Below are positions 25,389 through 33,988 of a stretch of DNA of 64,000 bases, in pieces. The stretch's first letter is position 1, and the number at the start of each line of letters is the position of its first letter. Source of the DNA: Rhodospirillales bacterium (GTDB lineage Bacteria > Pseudomonadota > Alphaproteobacteria > SP197); NCBI GenBank assembly GCA_014323865.1, contig JACONG010000014.1, positions 1 to 64,000 on the forward strand. Direction: 5' to 3'. A program made the translations under genes and the position numbers. The notes beneath the pieces were generated by a model, which saw only the letters and a program-made list of their open reading frames with translations, had not been told where the DNA came from and ran no database searches.

Positions 25389-27350
25389 CTAAAGCTCCGC
25401 CGACACCTTGAGCCCCTCCAGCACCGCCTCCTCAGCGGTGCGGGGCGCAAGACAGTCACCGATCATGTGGATCTCGCCGGGCCAGTCTTCGAGCTTATCT
25501 GCAAGCGTGGTGACCGAGTGATGCCCGAGTGCGGTCACCAGCGTGTCGACCTGCTCGATGATGATCGCCTCGCCGCTGGTGACATGTTGCAGATAGACGC
25601 TGTCGGCATCGGCACCGAACACACGGGCGTAGGGAATCACCTTCACGCCGAGCCTGTGGAGCGTTGCGGCCCAATGGTCGCGGACATACATCTGGATGGT
25701 CTGGCCGGGCATGTAGCCGTCAACCGCCAGAGTGACGTTGCAGCCGTTGCGCGCGAGGTGTTCGGCGAGTCCCATGCCGATCCAGTCGCAACGCCAGTCG
25801 GCGATCACCACATTGCCGCCGACGTTCGCTTCGCCTTTAACGACCGACCAGGCCTCCACGACATGGGCCTCTTCCATGCCCTCGATGTCGACCGGCGCCG
25901 GCGTGGCGCCCGTGGCGACAATCACGGCATCGGGAGCCTGGGTCTCGATGAAGGCACGGTCGACGGCCTGGTTCTTCACGACGGTCACGCCGGTTAGCTC
26001 CATCTCGCGGGTCAGGTTGGTGACGATACCACCGAACTCGGCGCGGCCGGGGAGTGCCTGGGCCAGAAGCGTCTGACCGCCGAGCTGGCCTGAGGCCTCG
26101 TAGAGCGTGACGTCATGACCGCGCTCGGCGGCGACGGCGGCAGCCTTCATGCCTGCAGGGCCGCCGCCGGCGACAAGGACGTTCTTCTTATCGCCCAGCG
26201 GCTTGCGCGCCCCGTAGGCGAGTTCCCGGCCGGTCTCCGGGTGCTGAATGCAGGAGATCCCGACACCCATATGCATGTGGCCGATACAGGCCTGATTGCA
26301 GCCGATACAGGCGCGAATGTCGTCGACCCGACCGGCTTCCGCCTTGCCGGCCATCGCGGGATCGCAGATCTGGGCGCGTGTCATGCCGACCAGGTCAGCC
26401 TGCCCCGTGGCGACGATCTCCTCGGCCAGCTGCGGCTGGTTGACGCGTCCGGCCACGAATACCGGCACGTCGACCTTCTGCTTCACGCTGGCGGCGTAGG
26501 GCGCGATGTAGCCGTGTTCGATGAACATCGGAGGGACGATGTGGATTGAGCCGCCCAGCGAGGCCGACGAGCCCGCGATGACACTGAAGTAGTCGAGTCC
26601 GCCACCCTGATCGAGCAGTTCGATCGCCGCGGTCACCGTGTCCATGCCGGTCTGGTCGTGGGACTGCTCGTCGCCTGAGATACGCAGGCCGACGATGTAG
26701 TCGTCACCGACCTTCGATCGAATGTTGTCGGTGACCTCGCGCAGGAAACGGACGCGATTCTCGAGGCTGCCGCCGTACTCATCCTCGCGCAGGTTGACGT
26801 TTGGATTGAGGAACTGCGAGGGGAGATAACCGTGGCTCGCCACGATCTCCACCCCGTCCAGGCCACCTTCGCGCAAGCGCCCCGCCGCGTCGCCATAGCC
26901 GTCGATGACATCGTGGATCAGCTGCCGCGACATCGGCCGGGGCATGACGTGGAACCGTTCGTTGGGCACAGCCGACGGCGCATAGGCGACCGGCGCGCTG
27001 CCATCCATCGACTCCATGTTCTCGCGTCCGGGATGGAAGACCTGTCCGAACACCTTGCAGTCATGCTTGTTCACAGCGCGCGCAATGCGCTTGTAGCCCG
27101 GGATGCAGTCATCGTTGTAGGCTGAGATGGTGTGGGAGGTGTACACCGCCGATTCGTGGACCAGCGCCACCTCCACCACGACCAGTCCGGCACCACCGGC
27201 CGCACGCGCCTCGTGATAGGCCGCGAGATCCTCGCCGGGCAGGTAACCCGAAACAAGTGTCGTCATGTGACCGGTCGAGAAAATCCGGTTCTTGATCGTG
27301 ACGTCCTTGATCGTGAGTGGCGAAAACAGGTGCGGAAACATCTCCGACAT
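25389..27350 (-). CDS. FMN/FAD/[4Fe-4S] NADH:flavin oxidoreductase (dienoyl-CoA reductase / N-demethylase type)
   Basis: A 653-residue protein with three parts: an Old Yellow Enzyme FMN barrel (1-335), a 4Fe-4S site C-I-G-C-N-Q-A-C with a fourth Cys 12 residues on (about 343-362), and a FAD/NAD(P) half from about 385 (V-A-G-G-G-P-A-G-M-K). This is the architecture of 2,4-dienoyl-CoA reductase, trimethylamine dehydrogenase and the dimethylglycine or N-methylproline demethylases. The active-site segment V-A-S-H-G-Y-L and lack of fatty-acid genes nearby favour an amine demethylase, but substrate is not settled. It is the first gene of a pair with DUF924. Confidence 0.88.
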   Translation of the reverse strand: MSEMFPHLFSPLTIKDVTIKNRIFSTGHMTTLVSGYLPGEDLAAYHEARAAGGAGLVVVEVALVHESAVYTSHTISAYNDDCIPGYKRIARAVNKHDCKVFGQVFHPGRENMESMDGSAPVAYAPSAVPNERFHVMPRPMSRQLIHDVIDGYGDAAGRLREGGLDGVEIVASHGYLPSQFLNPNVNLREDEYGGSLENRVRFLREVTDNIRSKVGDDYIVGLRISGDEQSHDQTGMDTVTAAIELLDQGGGLDYFSVIAGSSASLGGSIHIVPPMFIEHGYIAPYAASVKQKVDVPVFVAGRVNQPQLAEEIVATGQADLVGMTRAQICDPAMAGKAEAGRVDDIRACIGCNQACIGHMHMGVGISCIQHPETGRELAYGARKPLGDKKNVLVAGGGPAGMKAAAVAAERGHDVTLYEASGQLGGQTLLAQALPGRAEFGGIVTNLTREMELTGVTVVKNQAVDRAFIETQAPDAVIVATGATPAPVDIEGMEEAHVVEAWSVVKGEANVGGNVVIADWRCDWIGMGLAEHLARNGCNVTLAVDGYMPGQTIQMYVRDHWAATLHRLGVKVIPYARVFGADADSVYLQHVTSGEAIIIEQVDTLVTALGHHSVTTLADKLEDWPGEIHMIGDCLAPRTAEEAVLEGLKVSAEL

Positions 27351-27394: not shown

Positions 27395-28639
27395 TCATCC
27401 CTCGCACGGTTCACGCCCGGCTTCAACTTGAAGCCTGCGCCGTTCCAGCCAGGGAATCAGGGCCGCTGCGACCAGTCCCAGGGACGAAGCAAGCAGCATC
27501 ATGGCCAGAAGTCCAGACGCCGCATCCGCGGGGACGAGAAGGGCGCCGGTCAGGGCCGAGAAGACCGCGCCGCCTGCAACCGCGAGCGCGCCGGAAAGCC
27601 CGGCAGCGCTGCCCGCCAGCTCCGGTCTGACGGACATGGCACCGGCATTGGCGCTTGGCATGGTGACGCCGTTGCCGACACCGACGAAGGCGCAGGCGGC
27701 AAAGAACAGGACCACATCCATGAGGCCTGCGAAGAGCAGGGCGAGCCCCGTCAGCAGACCCGTACAGGCGATCAGGCGTCCGGCGATCACCATCGTCGCC
27801 AGCGCTCGTCCCGCCGCCAGACGGCCCGAGAGGAAGCTGCCGAGGATGAAGCCTGCCGTGATCGTCCCCATCAGGACGCCCAGCATGGAGGTCTCCATGC
27901 CGAATGCGGCCGCGGCGACTAGTGGAACGCCTGCAAGGAAGGCATAGAAGGCGCCGATCGAGAACGCCATGCAGCCGGCATAGGCCCAGAACACGCCCGA
28001 CCCCAAAAGGGCAGGGTAAGAACGAAACTGCTGGGTGAGGCTTTCGCTCCGCCTAGTGTTGGTTTCGCCAAGGTCGGCCCAGCAGAGCGCCAGGACACTC
28101 AGCCCGAGCAGAAGGAAGGCGACGAAGCTGGCGCGCCAGCCGAAGGCGCTGTGGAGCGCGCCTCCCAGCATCGGGCCCATCATGGGTGCGAGCGCCCAGG
28201 CCATGGCGAGGTAGCCAATCAGGCTCGCTGCACGGTCCGGGGACCGTGCATCGCGGATCACGGCCATCGAGACGGTGTGTCCGGCGATGATGGCGCCCTG
28301 GACCAGGCGGCAGGCCAGAAACATCCAGATGTCGGTGGCCAGCATGCAGCCGAGTGAGGCTGCGCAGAACATCGCGAGTCCGACTAGGATCACGGGCCGG
28401 CGACCAAAGCAGTCCGACAGCGGACCCATGATGACCTGCAGGACCGCCGTGACCGTGGCATATCCGGCGATCGAGAGGTTCGCCAGGGCGTAGTCGACCC
28501 GAAAGTCGTCCGCGATCTGCGGCAGCGATGGCAGGAACATGTTCAGCGACATGATCGAGAGGCCGCTCAGCACGATCAGGGTCGCGAGGTGAGGTGGGGT
28601 CTCCGCTCCGCGAAGGAGGTTGTCTTGTTGCTTGGTCAT
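27395..28639 (-). CDS. MFS drug-efflux transporter, Bcr/CflA family
   Basis: A 414-residue, 12-helix drug:proton antiporter of the inner membrane. Family features are F-L-P-S-L-P-Q-I-A in helix 1, the loop motif G-P-L-S-D-C-F-G-R-R-P and R-L-V-Q-G in helix 4. Members export bicyclomycin, chloramphenicol or sulfonamides. I chose the ATG at 28639; the longer frame runs back through a terminator hairpin. Upstream lie a promoter, a 15-codon leader ORF and two hairpins, the second a rho-independent terminator, so expression is probably controlled by attenuation (see 28665-28818). Confidence 0.9.
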   Translation of the reverse strand: MTKQQDNLLRGAETPPHLATLIVLSGLSIMSLNMFLPSLPQIADDFRVDYALANLSIAGYATVTAVLQVIMGPLSDCFGRRPVILVGLAMFCAASLGCMLATDIWMFLACRLVQGAIIAGHTVSMAVIRDARSPDRAASLIGYLAMAWALAPMMGPMLGGALHSAFGWRASFVAFLLLGLSVLALCWADLGETNTRRSESLTQQFRSYPALLGSGVFWAYAGCMAFSIGAFYAFLAGVPLVAAAAFGMETSMLGVLMGTITAGFILGSFLSGRLAAGRALATMVIAGRLIACTGLLTGLALLFAGLMDVVLFFAACAFVGVGNGVTMPSANAGAMSVRPELAGSAAGLSGALAVAGGAVFSALTGALLVPADAASGLLAMMLLASSLGLVAAALIPWLERRRLQVEAGREPCEG

Positions 28640-28664
28640 CGTTCGCTTCGCTGAACTCGGGCAC

Positions 28665-28691
28665 AAAAAAGCCCCCGACGGTGTCGAGGGC
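28665..28691 (-). terminator. Attenuator terminator upstream of the efflux gene
   Basis: Minus-strand GCCCTCGAC-acc-GTCGGGGGC, a 9-bp stem with a 3-base loop, followed by TTTTTT. It sits in the leader, 26 bases before the efflux start codon, not after a gene. A weaker hairpin (GGTTCTC-taac-GAGAGCC, 28726-28709) precedes it, with the leader ORF stop in its loop. Confidence 0.85.
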
Positions 28692-28716
28692 GCATACGAA
28701 TCGGTAACGGCTCTCG

Positions 28717-28764
28717 TTAGAGAACCGCGCGCCATACGTACTGCGATACGATCCGAATCGACAT
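28717..28764 (-). CDS. Candidate regulatory leader peptide (15 codons)
   Basis: ATG at 28764 to TAA at 28719-28717 reads M-S-I-R-I-V-S-Q-Y-V-W-R-A-V-L. It lies about 20 bases after the predicted transcription start, its stop codon is in the loop of the first leader hairpin, and the terminator follows within 30 bases. This is the layout of ribosome-dependent attenuators. Translation or stalling on it is inferred. Confidence 0.5.
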   Translation of the reverse strand: MSIRIVSQYVWRAVL

Positions 28765-28789
28765 GGCTGTCCCGTGCGAACGCGGCCGG

Positions 28790-28818
28790 ACGCTAGGCGT
28801 CACGATCCAGGGTGTCAA
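28790..28818 (-). promoter_or_regulatory. Promoter of the efflux gene leader
   Basis: Minus-strand consensus TTGACA (28818-28813), 17-base spacer, TAGCGT (28795-28790). Confidence 0.65.
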
Positions 28819-28901
28819 TCGGCGCGGTGGTTTGGAAAGGTCGTTAGAGTGTGGTGTGTCCTGGGGCTAGACTTTGGGAAAAGAAGCCGCAGGGAAACAC
28901 C

Positions 28902-30227
28902 ATGGCCACGCTGGGCAACGTCGCGCTGGAAGCCGATCTTCGGGAAGCGCTCGGGAAGGCCGTCGCCGATTTCGTTGCGGCCAACCCGAAGAGTCGGACG
29001 GAGGACGAGAGGGCCGCGGGCTCCATGCCGGGCGGGAACACGCGAACCGTGCTGTTCCACCCGCCGTTCCCGCTCACCATCGAGCGCGGCGAAGGCCAGT
29101 ACGTCCGGGACATTGACGGTCACAGCTACACCGACTTCGTGGGCGAGTTCGGTGCCGGCCTGTTCGGCCACTCCAATCCGCAGATCGTCGAGGCCATGAC
29201 CCGCGCCATCGGCGACGGTGTCGTGCTTGGCGGACCGAACCGCTACGAACGTATTCTCGCCGCCGAACTGGTCAACCGCTTCCCTTCGCTCGACAAGGTG
29301 CGCTTCACCAACTCCGGCACCGAAGCCAACATGATGGCGATTGCGACTGCCCGTGTCGTCTCCGGCAAGTCGAAGGTCATGGTGTTCGCAGGCAGCTATC
29401 ACGGCGGCGTCTTCATGTTTGCCCACGGCGGATCGCCCGTCAACGCGCCCTTCGACTATGTCATGGCACCGTTCAACAGGACCGACGAAACCGTTTCTCT
29501 CGTCGCGCAGCACGCCGGCGATCTGGCCTGTGTCGTGATCGAGCCGATGCAGGGCGCGGGCGGCATGATCCCGGCCGACAAGGACTTCCTGCAGGCCCTG
29601 CGGGACGTCACGGCAAGGCACGACATCATCCTCATCTTCGATGAAGTGGTGACAAGCCGCCTGTCCGGCGGCGGTCGGCAGAAGCTGCTGGGGATCACGC
29701 CCGACATGACGACGCTGGGCAAGTATATCGGCGGCGGCGCAACCTTCGGTGCCTTCGGCGGCCGGGAAGACATCATGAACCGCTATGACCCCCGTTCGGA
29801 GAATCCGATCGAGCACCCGGGCACCTTCAACAACAACGTCATCACCCACGCCGCGGGATCGACGGGCATGACGCAGATCTACACGCCCGGGAAGGCTGAC
29901 AGCTTCAATGCCTGGGGCCAGGCCTTCCGGGACGGCCTCAACGAGACCATCCGCAAGCACAGCCTGCCGCTGCATGTTTCGGGCCTGGGTTCCATCATGC
30001 AGCTCCACTGCTGCGAAGGTCCGCTCAAAGACGTGCACGACAGCGAGAAGGGCAACAGGCTCAAGAGCGGGCTGGTGTTCTACGACCTGCTGGCGCGCGG
30101 TCAGCGCATGACCTGGCGCAACTCCATGCTGCTCTGCCTGCCGATGACCGATGAGGACCTCGATGGCTATGTGGCGGCCTTCGACGACGTCCTGTCGTCG
30201 CGCAGTCATCTTCTGGCGGCAGAGTGA
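28902..30227 (+). CDS. Class III aminotransferase, glutamate-1-semialdehyde aminomutase-like
   Basis: PLP enzyme of 441 residues. S-M-P-G-G-N-T-R matches the start of HemL-like enzymes, N-S-G-T-E-A-N-M the cofactor phosphate site, I-F-D-E-V-V-T-S-R the Asp contact, and K274 (L-G-K-Y-I-G-G-G) is the Schiff-base lysine. Such paralogues of HemL often act on amino acids or amines in catabolic clusters rather than in haem synthesis. ATG at 28902 has CAGGGA upstream; the open frame beginning earlier lacks a ribosome site. Transcribed alone, divergent from the efflux gene. Confidence 0.87.
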   Translation: MATLGNVALEADLREALGKAVADFVAANPKSRTEDERAAGSMPGGNTRTVLFHPPFPLTIERGEGQYVRDIDGHSYTDFVGEFGAGLFGHSNPQIVEAMTRAIGDGVVLGGPNRYERILAAELVNRFPSLDKVRFTNSGTEANMMAIATARVVSGKSKVMVFAGSYHGGVFMFAHGGSPVNAPFDYVMAPFNRTDETVSLVAQHAGDLACVVIEPMQGAGGMIPADKDFLQALRDVTARHDIILIFDEVVTSRLSGGGRQKLLGITPDMTTLGKYIGGGATFGAFGGREDIMNRYDPRSENPIEHPGTFNNNVITHAAGSTGMTQIYTPGKADSFNAWGQAFRDGLNETIRKHSLPLHVSGLGSIMQLHCCEGPLKDVHDSEKGNRLKSGLVFYDLLARGQRMTWRNSMLLCLPMTDEDLDGYVAAFDDVLSSRSHLLAAE

Positions 30228-31063: not shown

Positions 31064-32686
31064 TCAACGCAGATAGGCGGAGTCCTCGTGGACTTCGATC
31101 AGCGTCGGGCCCCTGGTCCTGAAGGCCTCCCTGACGGCACCGGTCAGGCCCTTGAGCGACTTCGGTTTCCGCGTGTTGGCACCGAACGCCTTGCCGAGCG
31201 CCATGAAGTCGGGATTGCGTCCGGGCACGACGCCGCATTCGGCGATATCGCGTTCGATCATGCCGTCGCGGATCTGGCTCAACGCATCGTTGTTCCAGAT
31301 GACGATCGGCAGGCTCACCGCCTCGTCGACCGCGGTCGCGAGTTCCGTCGCGGTGAACAGGAAGCCGGCGTCGCCGGTCAGCACCACGCCGTCGCGTTCG
31401 GGCACGCCGAGCCTGGCACCGATGCCCGACGGCATCGACGAACCCAGCGTGCAATAGCCATTGGGATGGGTATAGCTGCGCGGGTGCGAGGTCGCCCAGT
31501 ACGCGTTGGCGAAATAGGCGATCTGCGTCGCATCGGTGATCATCCAGCCGTCGTGCGGGAGCGCCGTGCGCAGGGCGTCGAGCACCTTCACGAACTTCGG
31601 CGCGCGCGGATCCTTCATCTGCAGCGCACGCGCCTTCCTGCGGATGTCGGCGATCGCCCTTGAGCCCGTGTAACCGGGCTTCCTGCCGCCCGAAGGCAGC
31701 GCGTCCGTGAGCATCTCCATGGCAAGGCCGGCATCGCCCAGGATCGCGGCATCGGGCACGTAGTCGCGGCTGAGGTTGGCGGGGTCGATGTCGATCCGCA
31801 CCAGCTTGCCCTTCAGGTCGAGCCAGTCATTGGGCGCCCAGACGTCGGACTCGGCGAGCTCGGTGCCGATGGCGATCGTGACATCGGCGTTCTCGACCAG
31901 CCTGTGCCCAACGGACGAGGCCAGGATCGAGCCGCAATTCAACGGATGGTCGGCGGCGACCGTACCCTTTGAAGCATAGGTCAGGATGATCGCCGCGCCG
32001 AGCTTCTCGGCCAGCGCCTGCAGGGCCGCACCATGGTCCTGCGTGCCGCCACCGGCGACGATCACGGGCTTCCCGGCACCTCCGGCGACGGCTGCCGCGG
32101 CCTCGACCGAGGCCTCGTCCGGGCGCAGGGGGCCGGCGATCGGCGAGGTGCGCACCGCAAACTCGGCGACCTTGTCGATCTGGTCGATCGGCAGTTCGAT
32201 GTAGCAGGGGCGGGGCCGGCCAGCGGCGAAGATGTCGAACGCACGGTTCAGTGCGCCGGGAATCTGGCGGCCGTCGATGATGGTCTGGGCGAAGCTGCAA
32301 AGCGGCCTGATGGTCGCAAGCTGGTCGGTGATCTCGTGCAGCCGGCCGCGGCCCGCGCCGAGATCGCCGGTGCCGTTGGTGCTGGCGATCACCAGCATGG
32401 GCGAGCTGTCGGCATAGGCATTGCCCACGGCGGTCGCGATGTTGGTGACACCGGGGCCGGTGATGACGCAGCAGACCGCGGGCTTGCCCGAGATGCGGGC
32501 GCAGCCGTCGGCCATGAAGCCGCCGCCCTGTTCGTGACGGAACAGCACGTGCCTCATCCCGGCATCGGCGATTCCCCGATAGTACTCCAGCGTATGGACG
32601 CCGGGCATCCCGAAGACGGTGTCGATGCCATAGGCCTTCACAAGCTGCATCAGCGCCTGTCCGCGGGTGAGGTTGCCTGCCGCCAT
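31064..32686 (-). CDS. Thiamine-diphosphate-dependent decarboxylase/synthase (acetolactate-synthase-like)
   Basis: A 540-residue ThDP enzyme with the standard N, central and C domains. Catalytic Glu52 lies in F-R-H-E-Q-G-G-G; the ThDP/Mg motif runs from T-G-D-A-G-F-L-F to W-N-N-D. It is not a biosynthetic acetolactate synthase by context: no small subunit gene follows. The family includes AruI, the 5-guanidino-2-oxopentanoate decarboxylase of arginine transamination, and the divergent neighbour at 33083 belongs to the guanidine-modifying fold. A guanidino substrate is therefore plausible but unproven. ATG at 32686 is chosen over 32719 for the AAGGGG site. Confidence 0.82.
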   Translation of the reverse strand: MAAGNLTRGQALMQLVKAYGIDTVFGMPGVHTLEYYRGIADAGMRHVLFRHEQGGGFMADGCARISGKPAVCCVITGPGVTNIATAVGNAYADSSPMLVIASTNGTGDLGAGRGRLHEITDQLATIRPLCSFAQTIIDGRQIPGALNRAFDIFAAGRPRPCYIELPIDQIDKVAEFAVRTSPIAGPLRPDEASVEAAAAVAGGAGKPVIVAGGGTQDHGAALQALAEKLGAAIILTYASKGTVAADHPLNCGSILASSVGHRLVENADVTIAIGTELAESDVWAPNDWLDLKGKLVRIDIDPANLSRDYVPDAAILGDAGLAMEMLTDALPSGGRKPGYTGSRAIADIRRKARALQMKDPRAPKFVKVLDALRTALPHDGWMITDATQIAYFANAYWATSHPRSYTHPNGYCTLGSSMPSGIGARLGVPERDGVVLTGDAGFLFTATELATAVDEAVSLPIVIWNNDALSQIRDGMIERDIAECGVVPGRNPDFMALGKAFGANTRKPKSLKGLTGAVREAFRTRGPTLIEVHEDSAYLR

Positions 32687-33082
32687 GATCTGCCCCTTGT
32701 CCGGATGCGCGCGCATCATTCTGACGTGTATGGCAAGCTGTCAACACGCGTCGCTGTCAGGTCAGCCTTGCGGTCAGACGGTCGGTCAGCCGGGTCGCCA
32801 CGACATCCGTGCGTCGGTGCCGCGCGTCATTGCCACGCATCATTGCGGGGCGCATGGGGAAGCCGGTTGCGGGTGCCGCCCGGCGGCCGCCTCGAAGGCG
32901 CGCAGGGCGTTGCGTGTCGGGAGTCGGCCTGTCAGGAGTCGGCGTATGGGCGGCCACGTTGTTCATTCGGCGGTCCGGGTTCGTCCGACGCTCCGGCTAT
33001 CGGATGCGCGGAATTCTTTTCTCTTGTGCTCACGCGAACGAGACGCGACCTTACGGCCCGGACCCGCCCTCTGGAGACCGCC
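32687..33082. other. Divergent intergenic region with short repeats
   Basis: No gene seen in 396 bp. It contains several g-g-t-c-a-g repeats at 32755-32795 and a 15-bp tandem duplication (32915-32944, two mismatches). Promoters for both flanking genes should be here; an AT-richer stretch at 33010-33030 is the best site for the plus-strand one. Confidence 0.4.
32915..32944. repeat. 15-bp tandem duplication
   Basis: tgtcgggagtcggcc is followed directly by tgtcaggagtcggcg. Confidence 0.75.
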
Positions 33083-33988
33083 ATGAAACCGTTGCGTTGC
33101 CGTTCGCCGGAAGGAAACACGCCCGAACTCTCCGACTGGGGATGTAACTCCGAATACGGCACGCTGACCGATGTGCTGCTCGGCCCTGCCGACAACTACA
33201 GGTGGCTCGCCACGAGCTCGATTTCCAGGGCGACCCTGAAGCGCGGTGACGTCTTCGATCGCCAGCTCGCCATGAGGCAGCATCGCGAGATGGTCGGCGC
33301 GTATGAGGAAGCGGGCGTCAACGTGCACTGGCTCGAGCCCGACGAGGACCTGCCCTATCAGGTCTACGCCCGCGATTCGTCGTTCATGACGCCCTATGGC
33401 GCTGTGGTCACGCAGATGGCCCAGTGGTGGCGGCGCGGTGAGTACGGTCCCGTGATGCGCTTCTACATGGACAAGGGAATCCCGATCTACGACATGGTCA
33501 CCGCAGGCTCGTTCGAGGGCGGTGACTTCGACATCATCGAACCGGGCTGCGTGCTGATCGGCTGGTGCGGCGAGCGCACCCAGGAGCAGTCGGCCAATCA
33601 GGTCCGCCGCTGGTTCGAGAAGGAGGGCTGGGAGGTCCGCATCGCGCCGATCGCCGAGCACTACGTCCACATCGACCTCATGGTCTGCATGTTGGCCGAC
33701 AGGCTCTGCGCGGTCTGCCTCGATACGACCGATCCCGGAATCGTCGACTGGCTCAAGGCCAGGAACATCGAGATCGTGCCCGTGAACTATCGGGACACCA
33801 TGGCGCTTGCCTGCAACGTCATGGCGCTCGGCAACGACAGGGTGTTGGCACCCGCCCACGCCAGGGACCTGGTCTCGAAGCTGAAAGCGCTGGGCTTCAC
33901 CGTCTACGACCCCGACGTCGACGTCTTCACCCGCGGCGGCGGTGGCGTTCACTGCATGGCCCAGTCCCTGCGCCGGGAGCGGGTCTGA
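33083..33988 (+). CDS. Amidinotransferase/dimethylargininase-fold guanidino enzyme
   Basis: A 301-residue member of the guanidine-modifying superfamily (arginine deiminase, DDAH, amidinotransferase). The catalytic triad region is visible as E-G-G-D-F-D, H-Y-V-H-I-D-L and nucleophile Cys291 in G-G-G-V-H-C-M-A-Q-S-L. The family hydrolyses or transfers the guanidino carbon of arginine derivatives through a Cys adduct. Start ATG at 33083 has CTGGAG upstream; the long open frame before it is on intergenic DNA. It is divergent to the ThDP enzyme, suggesting a shared guanidino-compound pathway. Confidence 0.85.
   Translation: MKPLRCRSPEGNTPELSDWGCNSEYGTLTDVLLGPADNYRWLATSSISRATLKRGDVFDRQLAMRQHREMVGAYEEAGVNVHWLEPDEDLPYQVYARDSSFMTPYGAVVTQMAQWWRRGEYGPVMRFYMDKGIPIYDMVTAGSFEGGDFDIIEPGCVLIGWCGERTQEQSANQVRRWFEKEGWEVRIAPIAEHYVHIDLMVCMLADRLCAVCLDTTDPGIVDWLKARNIEIVPVNYRDTMALACNVMALGNDRVLAPAHARDLVSKLKALGFTVYDPDVDVFTRGGGGVHCMAQSLRRERV

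Follow-up and report, generated by a model that had tools for sequence, protein, structure and literature searches.

The window analysed here, a stretch of 64,000 nucleotides from a Rhodospirillales bacterium (contig JACONG010000014.1), contains on its minus strand a transporter gene preceded by what looks like a transcription attenuator, which raises the question of what this leader senses and whether the gene behind it serves drug export at all. A preliminary description had placed a promoter, a 15-codon ORF, a hairpin with the ORF stop codon in its loop, a terminator and the start of an efflux gene in that order on the minus strand, and all of these were found at the places it gave (Table 1). 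It had also reported no obvious antiterminator; folding and alignment revealed one, formed by a strand within the leader ORF and a strand at the foot of the terminator.

Table 1. Features of the transporter leader and gene in the window, in order of transcription
Feature	Position	Strand	Basis
Promoter, TTGACA-17-TAGCGT	-35 28818-28813; -10 28795-28790	minus	read from sequence; boxes in relatives
Leader ORF, 15 codons, MSIRIVSQYVWRAVL + TAA	28764-28717	minus	sequence; comparison with relatives
Antiterminator 5' strand, GGCGC, within codons Trp11-Arg12 of the leader ORF	28733-28729	minus	folding; alignment
Hairpin P1, CGGTTCTC-TAAC-GAGAGCCG, TAA stop codon in loop	28727-28708	minus	folding; covariation
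Antiterminator 3' strand, GCGCC, overlapping the foot (5' arm) of the terminator stem	28693-28689	minus	folding; alignment
Intrinsic terminator, GCCCTCGAC-ACC-GTCGGGGGC + T6	stem 28691-28671; T6 28670-28665	minus	folding; pairing in 22 leaders
MFS transporter gene, annotated Bcr/CflA type, 414 aa	27395..28639 (ATG 28639)	minus	profile matches

The leader ORF reads ATG TCG ATT CGG ATC GTA TCG CAG TAC GTA TGG CGC GCG GTT CTC TAA. By folding, the 18-nt core of P1 has an energy of -9.1 kcal/mol, which none of 200 shuffled sequences equalled, and the terminator one of -15.5 kcal/mol. The complete 211-nt leader is unremarkable by folding energy alone (z = -0.93), and the case therefore rests on comparison and conservation. 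The promoter (28790..28818) was not listed by a generic sigma-70 scan because its -10 box is weak, and most relatives carry TTGAC-16/19-TA boxes at the equivalent place, many of them with the 17-nt spacing. An in-frame ATG at 28735 opens a 446-aa ORF (28735-27395, minus strand) that crosses the leader hairpins and the terminator, and gene callers may put the transporter start there, hiding the leader.

When the window transcript was ended before the terminator 3' arm, GGCGC was predicted to pair with GCGCC, with P1 nested inside. This helix and the terminator overlap at the terminator foot and are mutually exclusive. Relatives have a longer antiterminator helix, GGCGC-ATGG with CCAT-GCGCC, and of these 9 nt the window keeps only the 5-bp core. 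The antiterminator cells are 88% paired in 22 aligned leaders and 91% in a second set, compared with 31-68% when the partner was slid. The helix is strongly conserved with little true covariation, its score being reached by 63 of 500 shuffles (22 leaders), because it varies little. P1 covaries, with 15 two-sided changes and a covariation score reached by none of 500 shuffles, and 96.6% of the terminator cells are paired (22 leaders in each case); both hairpins, whose conservation the preliminary description had proposed as a check, are conserved. Two further candidates were rejected: a pairing of the post-stop region with the terminator (2:3), for which no consistent case was seen by eye, and an internal start in the leader (an SD-like GGAAGG before ATG), where the ATG is often TTG, CTG, AGG or CCG.

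The leader ORF, hairpins and terminator were read ahead of the transporter in 36 leaders. Orthologues of ∼45-67% identity from many families of the class share the layout, with leaders of ∼15-21 codons (for example MTTSIVVVGTWRMVR, MTATIVVLGAWRLDR, MITTIVTAGDWRLDR, MHLLNTVVVGARRPGR, and MKFVVVVAGDRRMDR) that typically follow the pattern M...(I/V)VVVG..RM(V/D)R and a stop codon. Relatives with a leader were also found on pTB1 of Roseobacter denitrificans (MTVKFVVVVSKRRMVR) and, among the beta-proteobacteria, in Burkholderia arboris and B. cenocepacia (MKTACFIVVVHRRRVR, MKTTCFIVVVHRRRVR). In the protein tree, a single Bcr/CflA transporter clade from Alphaproteobacteria and Burkholderia (support 84/96, and 98/95 when one more row was added) has the leader in 35 of its 42 rows; six of the remainder have none, and in one, from Agrobacterium pAt2, a TPP riboswitch stands where the leader would be. 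Paralogues at ∼31-38% identity gave no leader match. One genome (G007) has two paralogous transporters (L004 and L073) with a near-identical leader ahead of each.

A covariance model built from 28 other leaders, with the window excluded, matched the window at 28755-28665 with 51.7 bits (rough E 7.5e-13). Conservation of this kind is what marks the element as real, and the window carries a genuine, if divergent, copy of it. Ser-Gln-Tyr stands in place of the Val-Val-Gly of relatives, which leaves Ile5 and Val6 (and Ile3) as sensor codons, and the likely sister of the window copy (L002) also has a degenerate VVVG motif. The literal peptide IRIVSQYVWRAVL, whose conservation had been proposed as a check, is not conserved, whereas the family pattern is. 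The proposal of ribosome-sensing attenuation with a leader peptide and a terminator is well supported by this conservation.

The transporter-leader model was also run on whole genomes, whatever the gene downstream. In the G037 family (presumably Rhodobacterales-like) 162 of 198 genomes gave matches at E < 1e-6, and the next gene was ilvB, the acetolactate synthase large subunit as we infer from the gene sequence, at all 49 loci read (example leaders MHRLVVIVGKWRMGR, MKILVVVVGTTRMGR, and MADIVILVGKWRMGR). One covariance model unites transporter and ilvB leaders, the best ilvB matches scoring 63-88 bits; matches of model R1 below ∼32 bits were regarded as chance, and six such loci, when inspected, had no comparable leader. 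No such leader was found ahead of ilvB at 27 loci (L104-L130) from genomes with transporter leaders and from control genomes; a TTGAC-type promoter region is frequent at these loci, where an attenuator of the present kind is absent. A genome with two ilvB copies (G451; L142 and L160) has the attenuator leader ahead of each. An alpha-proteobacterial ilvB leader peptide is cited as previously described by Vitreschak et al. 2004 in Corbino et al. (PMC1273637), and the ilvB leaders found here are likely to be that leader. Leaders of the window type resemble the ilvB attenuator in their Val/Ile/Leu run, a P1 hairpin whose loop holds the stop codon, GCGC antiterminator and G+C-rich terminator; they differ in that an MFS transporter is controlled and that Val predominates among the sensor codons, Leu being infrequent, and the copy in the window is divergent.

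Codon positions were counted relative to a conserved Arg codon, which is CGC in 64 of 68 leaders, a constancy expected from RNA pairing. In the ilvB leaders, 94-100% of the codons from -8 to -4 are Val, Ile or Leu, interchanged freely, as expected for codon sensing. In the transporter leaders the share is 61-83% from -7 to -4, mostly Val, and positions -7 to -3 hold 96 Val, 17 Ile, and 8 Leu codons. The rare codon GTA makes up 32% of leader Val codons in the transporter set and 47% in the ilvB set, compared with 8 and 7%, respectively, when the longest ORF of each locus is counted.

Stall geometry was computed per A-site codon on the assumption that the ribosome covers 15 nt past the first P-site base. 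Antiterminator pairing is ∼1.0 for A-site positions up to -5, falls to 0.4-0.5 at -4 and is 0 from -3 onward; the zero at late positions is a consequence of the masking itself, and the informative part is where the Val/Ile/Leu run ends. The run stops exactly where a stalled ribosome would start to mask the antiterminator. For the window leader, Arg4, Ile5, Val6 or Ser7 in the A site leaves the pairing free; earlier codons leave it partly free, and a ribosome at the stop codon masks it. Ile3, Ile5, and Val6 are thus stall codons that leave the antiterminator free or partly free, although their enrichment is weaker than in relatives.

Because the element is shared with ilvB, carries Val/Ile/Leu codons and has this stall geometry, we read it, with a probability of roughly 0.7, as a ribosome-mediated ilv-type attenuator that senses charged branched-chain tRNAs, chiefly that of Val, and controls the MFS transporter. 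When Val- and Ile-tRNA are charged, the ribosome would reach the stop codon and cover the leader GGCGC, whereupon the terminator would form and transcription would end. When they are uncharged, the ribosome would wait on the Ile and Val codons and leave GGCGC free to pair with GCGCC at the terminator foot, so that the stem beside the U-run could not close and RNA polymerase would read into the transporter. P1 probably serves as the pause hairpin and also competes for the antiterminator strand. The model predicts that a shortage of branched-chain amino acids would induce the transporter. Against the model stand its dependence on an uptake role of the transporter, the divergent window leader, the weak covariation of the antiterminator, the 27 ilvB loci that have no leader, and the helix geometry of a rhizobial branch described below.

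The preliminary description had instead favored induction by a translation inhibitor, and a macrolide or other ribosome-binding antibiotic could indeed be imagined to stall the ribosome on an (I/V)VVVG leader and induce an efflux pump, as for ErmA and ErmC. The leader peptide resembles the IAVV and IFVI stalling motifs, is short and hydrophobic like the erm-type leaders (ErmA IAVV, ErmC IFVI), and precedes a gene annotated as a resistance gene with distant similarity to CmlA/FloR models. However, the erm systems act on translation with the drug as the cause of stalling, whereas here the ilvB context and the geometry point to tRNA charging. An element that precedes ilvB at every locus read is not confined to resistance genes, the free interchange of Val, Ile, and Leu in the ilvB leaders is what codon sensing would produce, and the window leader has no VVVG motif. 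Moreover, a ribosome halted by a macrolide with the last Val in the P site and Gly (-3) in the A site would cover the antiterminator, whereas stalls at earlier codons would leave it unmasked. Macrolide stalling was dropped for its conflict with the ilvB context and with a geometry that fits tRNA starvation, and induction by a translation inhibitor is not supported and seems unlikely. A quite different objection to the ilv-type attenuator is that the ancestral switch for branched-chain amino acids has decayed, leaving the window copy as a constitutive terminator or a general translation sensor. The degenerate VVVG motif of the window and its likely sister and the reduction of the antiterminator to its core fit such decay, but the window retains its promoter, P1, terminator, core antiterminator, and Ile5/Val6 and scores high with the model, and we consider decay improbable.

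A further alternative retains the branched-chain amino acid attenuator and changes the cargo: the transporter would export a toxic analogue or an inhibitor of branched-chain amino acid synthesis or tRNA charging, sensed indirectly through uncharged tRNA. The protein family is annotated as efflux, and inhibitors of tRNA charging would be expected to trip the same switch. The annotation itself bears scrutiny. That the gene encodes an MFS transporter annotated as Bcr/CflA, as first described, stands, with a match to PF07690; the word efflux is doubtful, resting as it does on name and homology, and the window protein scores 195.7 bits against TIGR00710 (Bcr/CflA drug efflux), just below the curated cut-off of 200.9, which two relatives exceed (L005, 234.2 bits; L033, 210.0 bits). 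The models similar to the window protein include the named importers PunC and FslD. In Agrobacterium tumefaciens pAt2 a TPP riboswitch (RF00059; L171 2809-2925, 74.6 bits) lies directly ahead of a transporter nested in the same clade, which hints at thiamine or one of its precursors as the substrate of this relative; a NUDIX hydrolase follows the transporter. The riboswitch resembles the leader in being an RNA that senses shortage and in its position ahead of a transporter from this clade, although it is a different sensor with a different ligand. The riboswitch fits uptake of a needed compound better than export and, with the PunC and FslD similarity, would favor nutrient uptake as a working hypothesis, leaving export of an inhibitor or analogue unlikely. 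The ilv-type attenuator itself calls for an uptake role, because an exporter induced by amino acid shortage makes little sense; the transporter may thus take up a nutrient, for example valine or a related compound, rather than export drugs.

The window transporter is followed closely by an FMN/NAD oxidoreductase gene (25389-27350, minus strand) and is divergent from a class-III aminotransferase gene (28851-30227, plus strand). Further neighbors encode a TPP-dependent enzyme (31064-32719, minus strand) and a DDAH/arginine-deiminase-like protein (32033-33988, plus strand), and the genes around the transporter possibly form a cluster for the catabolism of amino acid derivatives.

Where these transporter genes occur in Rhizobium, Mesorhizobium, Devosia, and one additional family, their leaders match the Rfam entry RF02502 (Atu_C8) at 77-113 bits (loci L033, L034, L048, L058-L062, L172, and L174). 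The window locus gave no match to Rfam at the gathering threshold, RF02502 (cut-off 50 bits) included. The Atu_C8 RNA likewise contains a leader ORF and a terminator; it differs in that Rfam files it as an sRNA gene, whereas we read it as a 5' leader that encodes a peptide. In this branch 7-8 nt separate the end of the -10 box from the ATG, a spacing that suggests a leaderless ORF. Its long leader helix coexists with the terminator and does not overlap it; therefore, antitermination must differ here or the RNA has another role.

Extending the argument to the whole family, we tentatively propose that starvation-induced uptake of a branched-chain amino acid (valine or a relative) is the role of a widespread "multidrug efflux" clade governed by an ilv-type attenuator that ilvB also has, and that the rhizobial Atu_C8 branch represents a leaderless attenuator. 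In that branch the terminated leader RNA may have gained another, possibly trans-acting, role because its long helix has ceased to compete with the terminator; this combined proposal is speculative, and we think it somewhat more apt to fail than to hold in full. Literature searches that combined the transporter with a leader peptide yielded no relevant report. The attenuation mechanism is already known and, as far as the searched literature shows, the transporter target and the reinterpretation of the Rfam entry are new. Should the ilv-type reading hold, a drug-resistance interpretation would be replaced by a nutritional one for the whole transporter clade, giving a first clue to its physiological substrate. 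An Rfam "sRNA" would be explained as a leader-peptide attenuator, and one amino acid attenuator would be seen to serve both a gene for biosynthesis and a gene for transport in different lineages.
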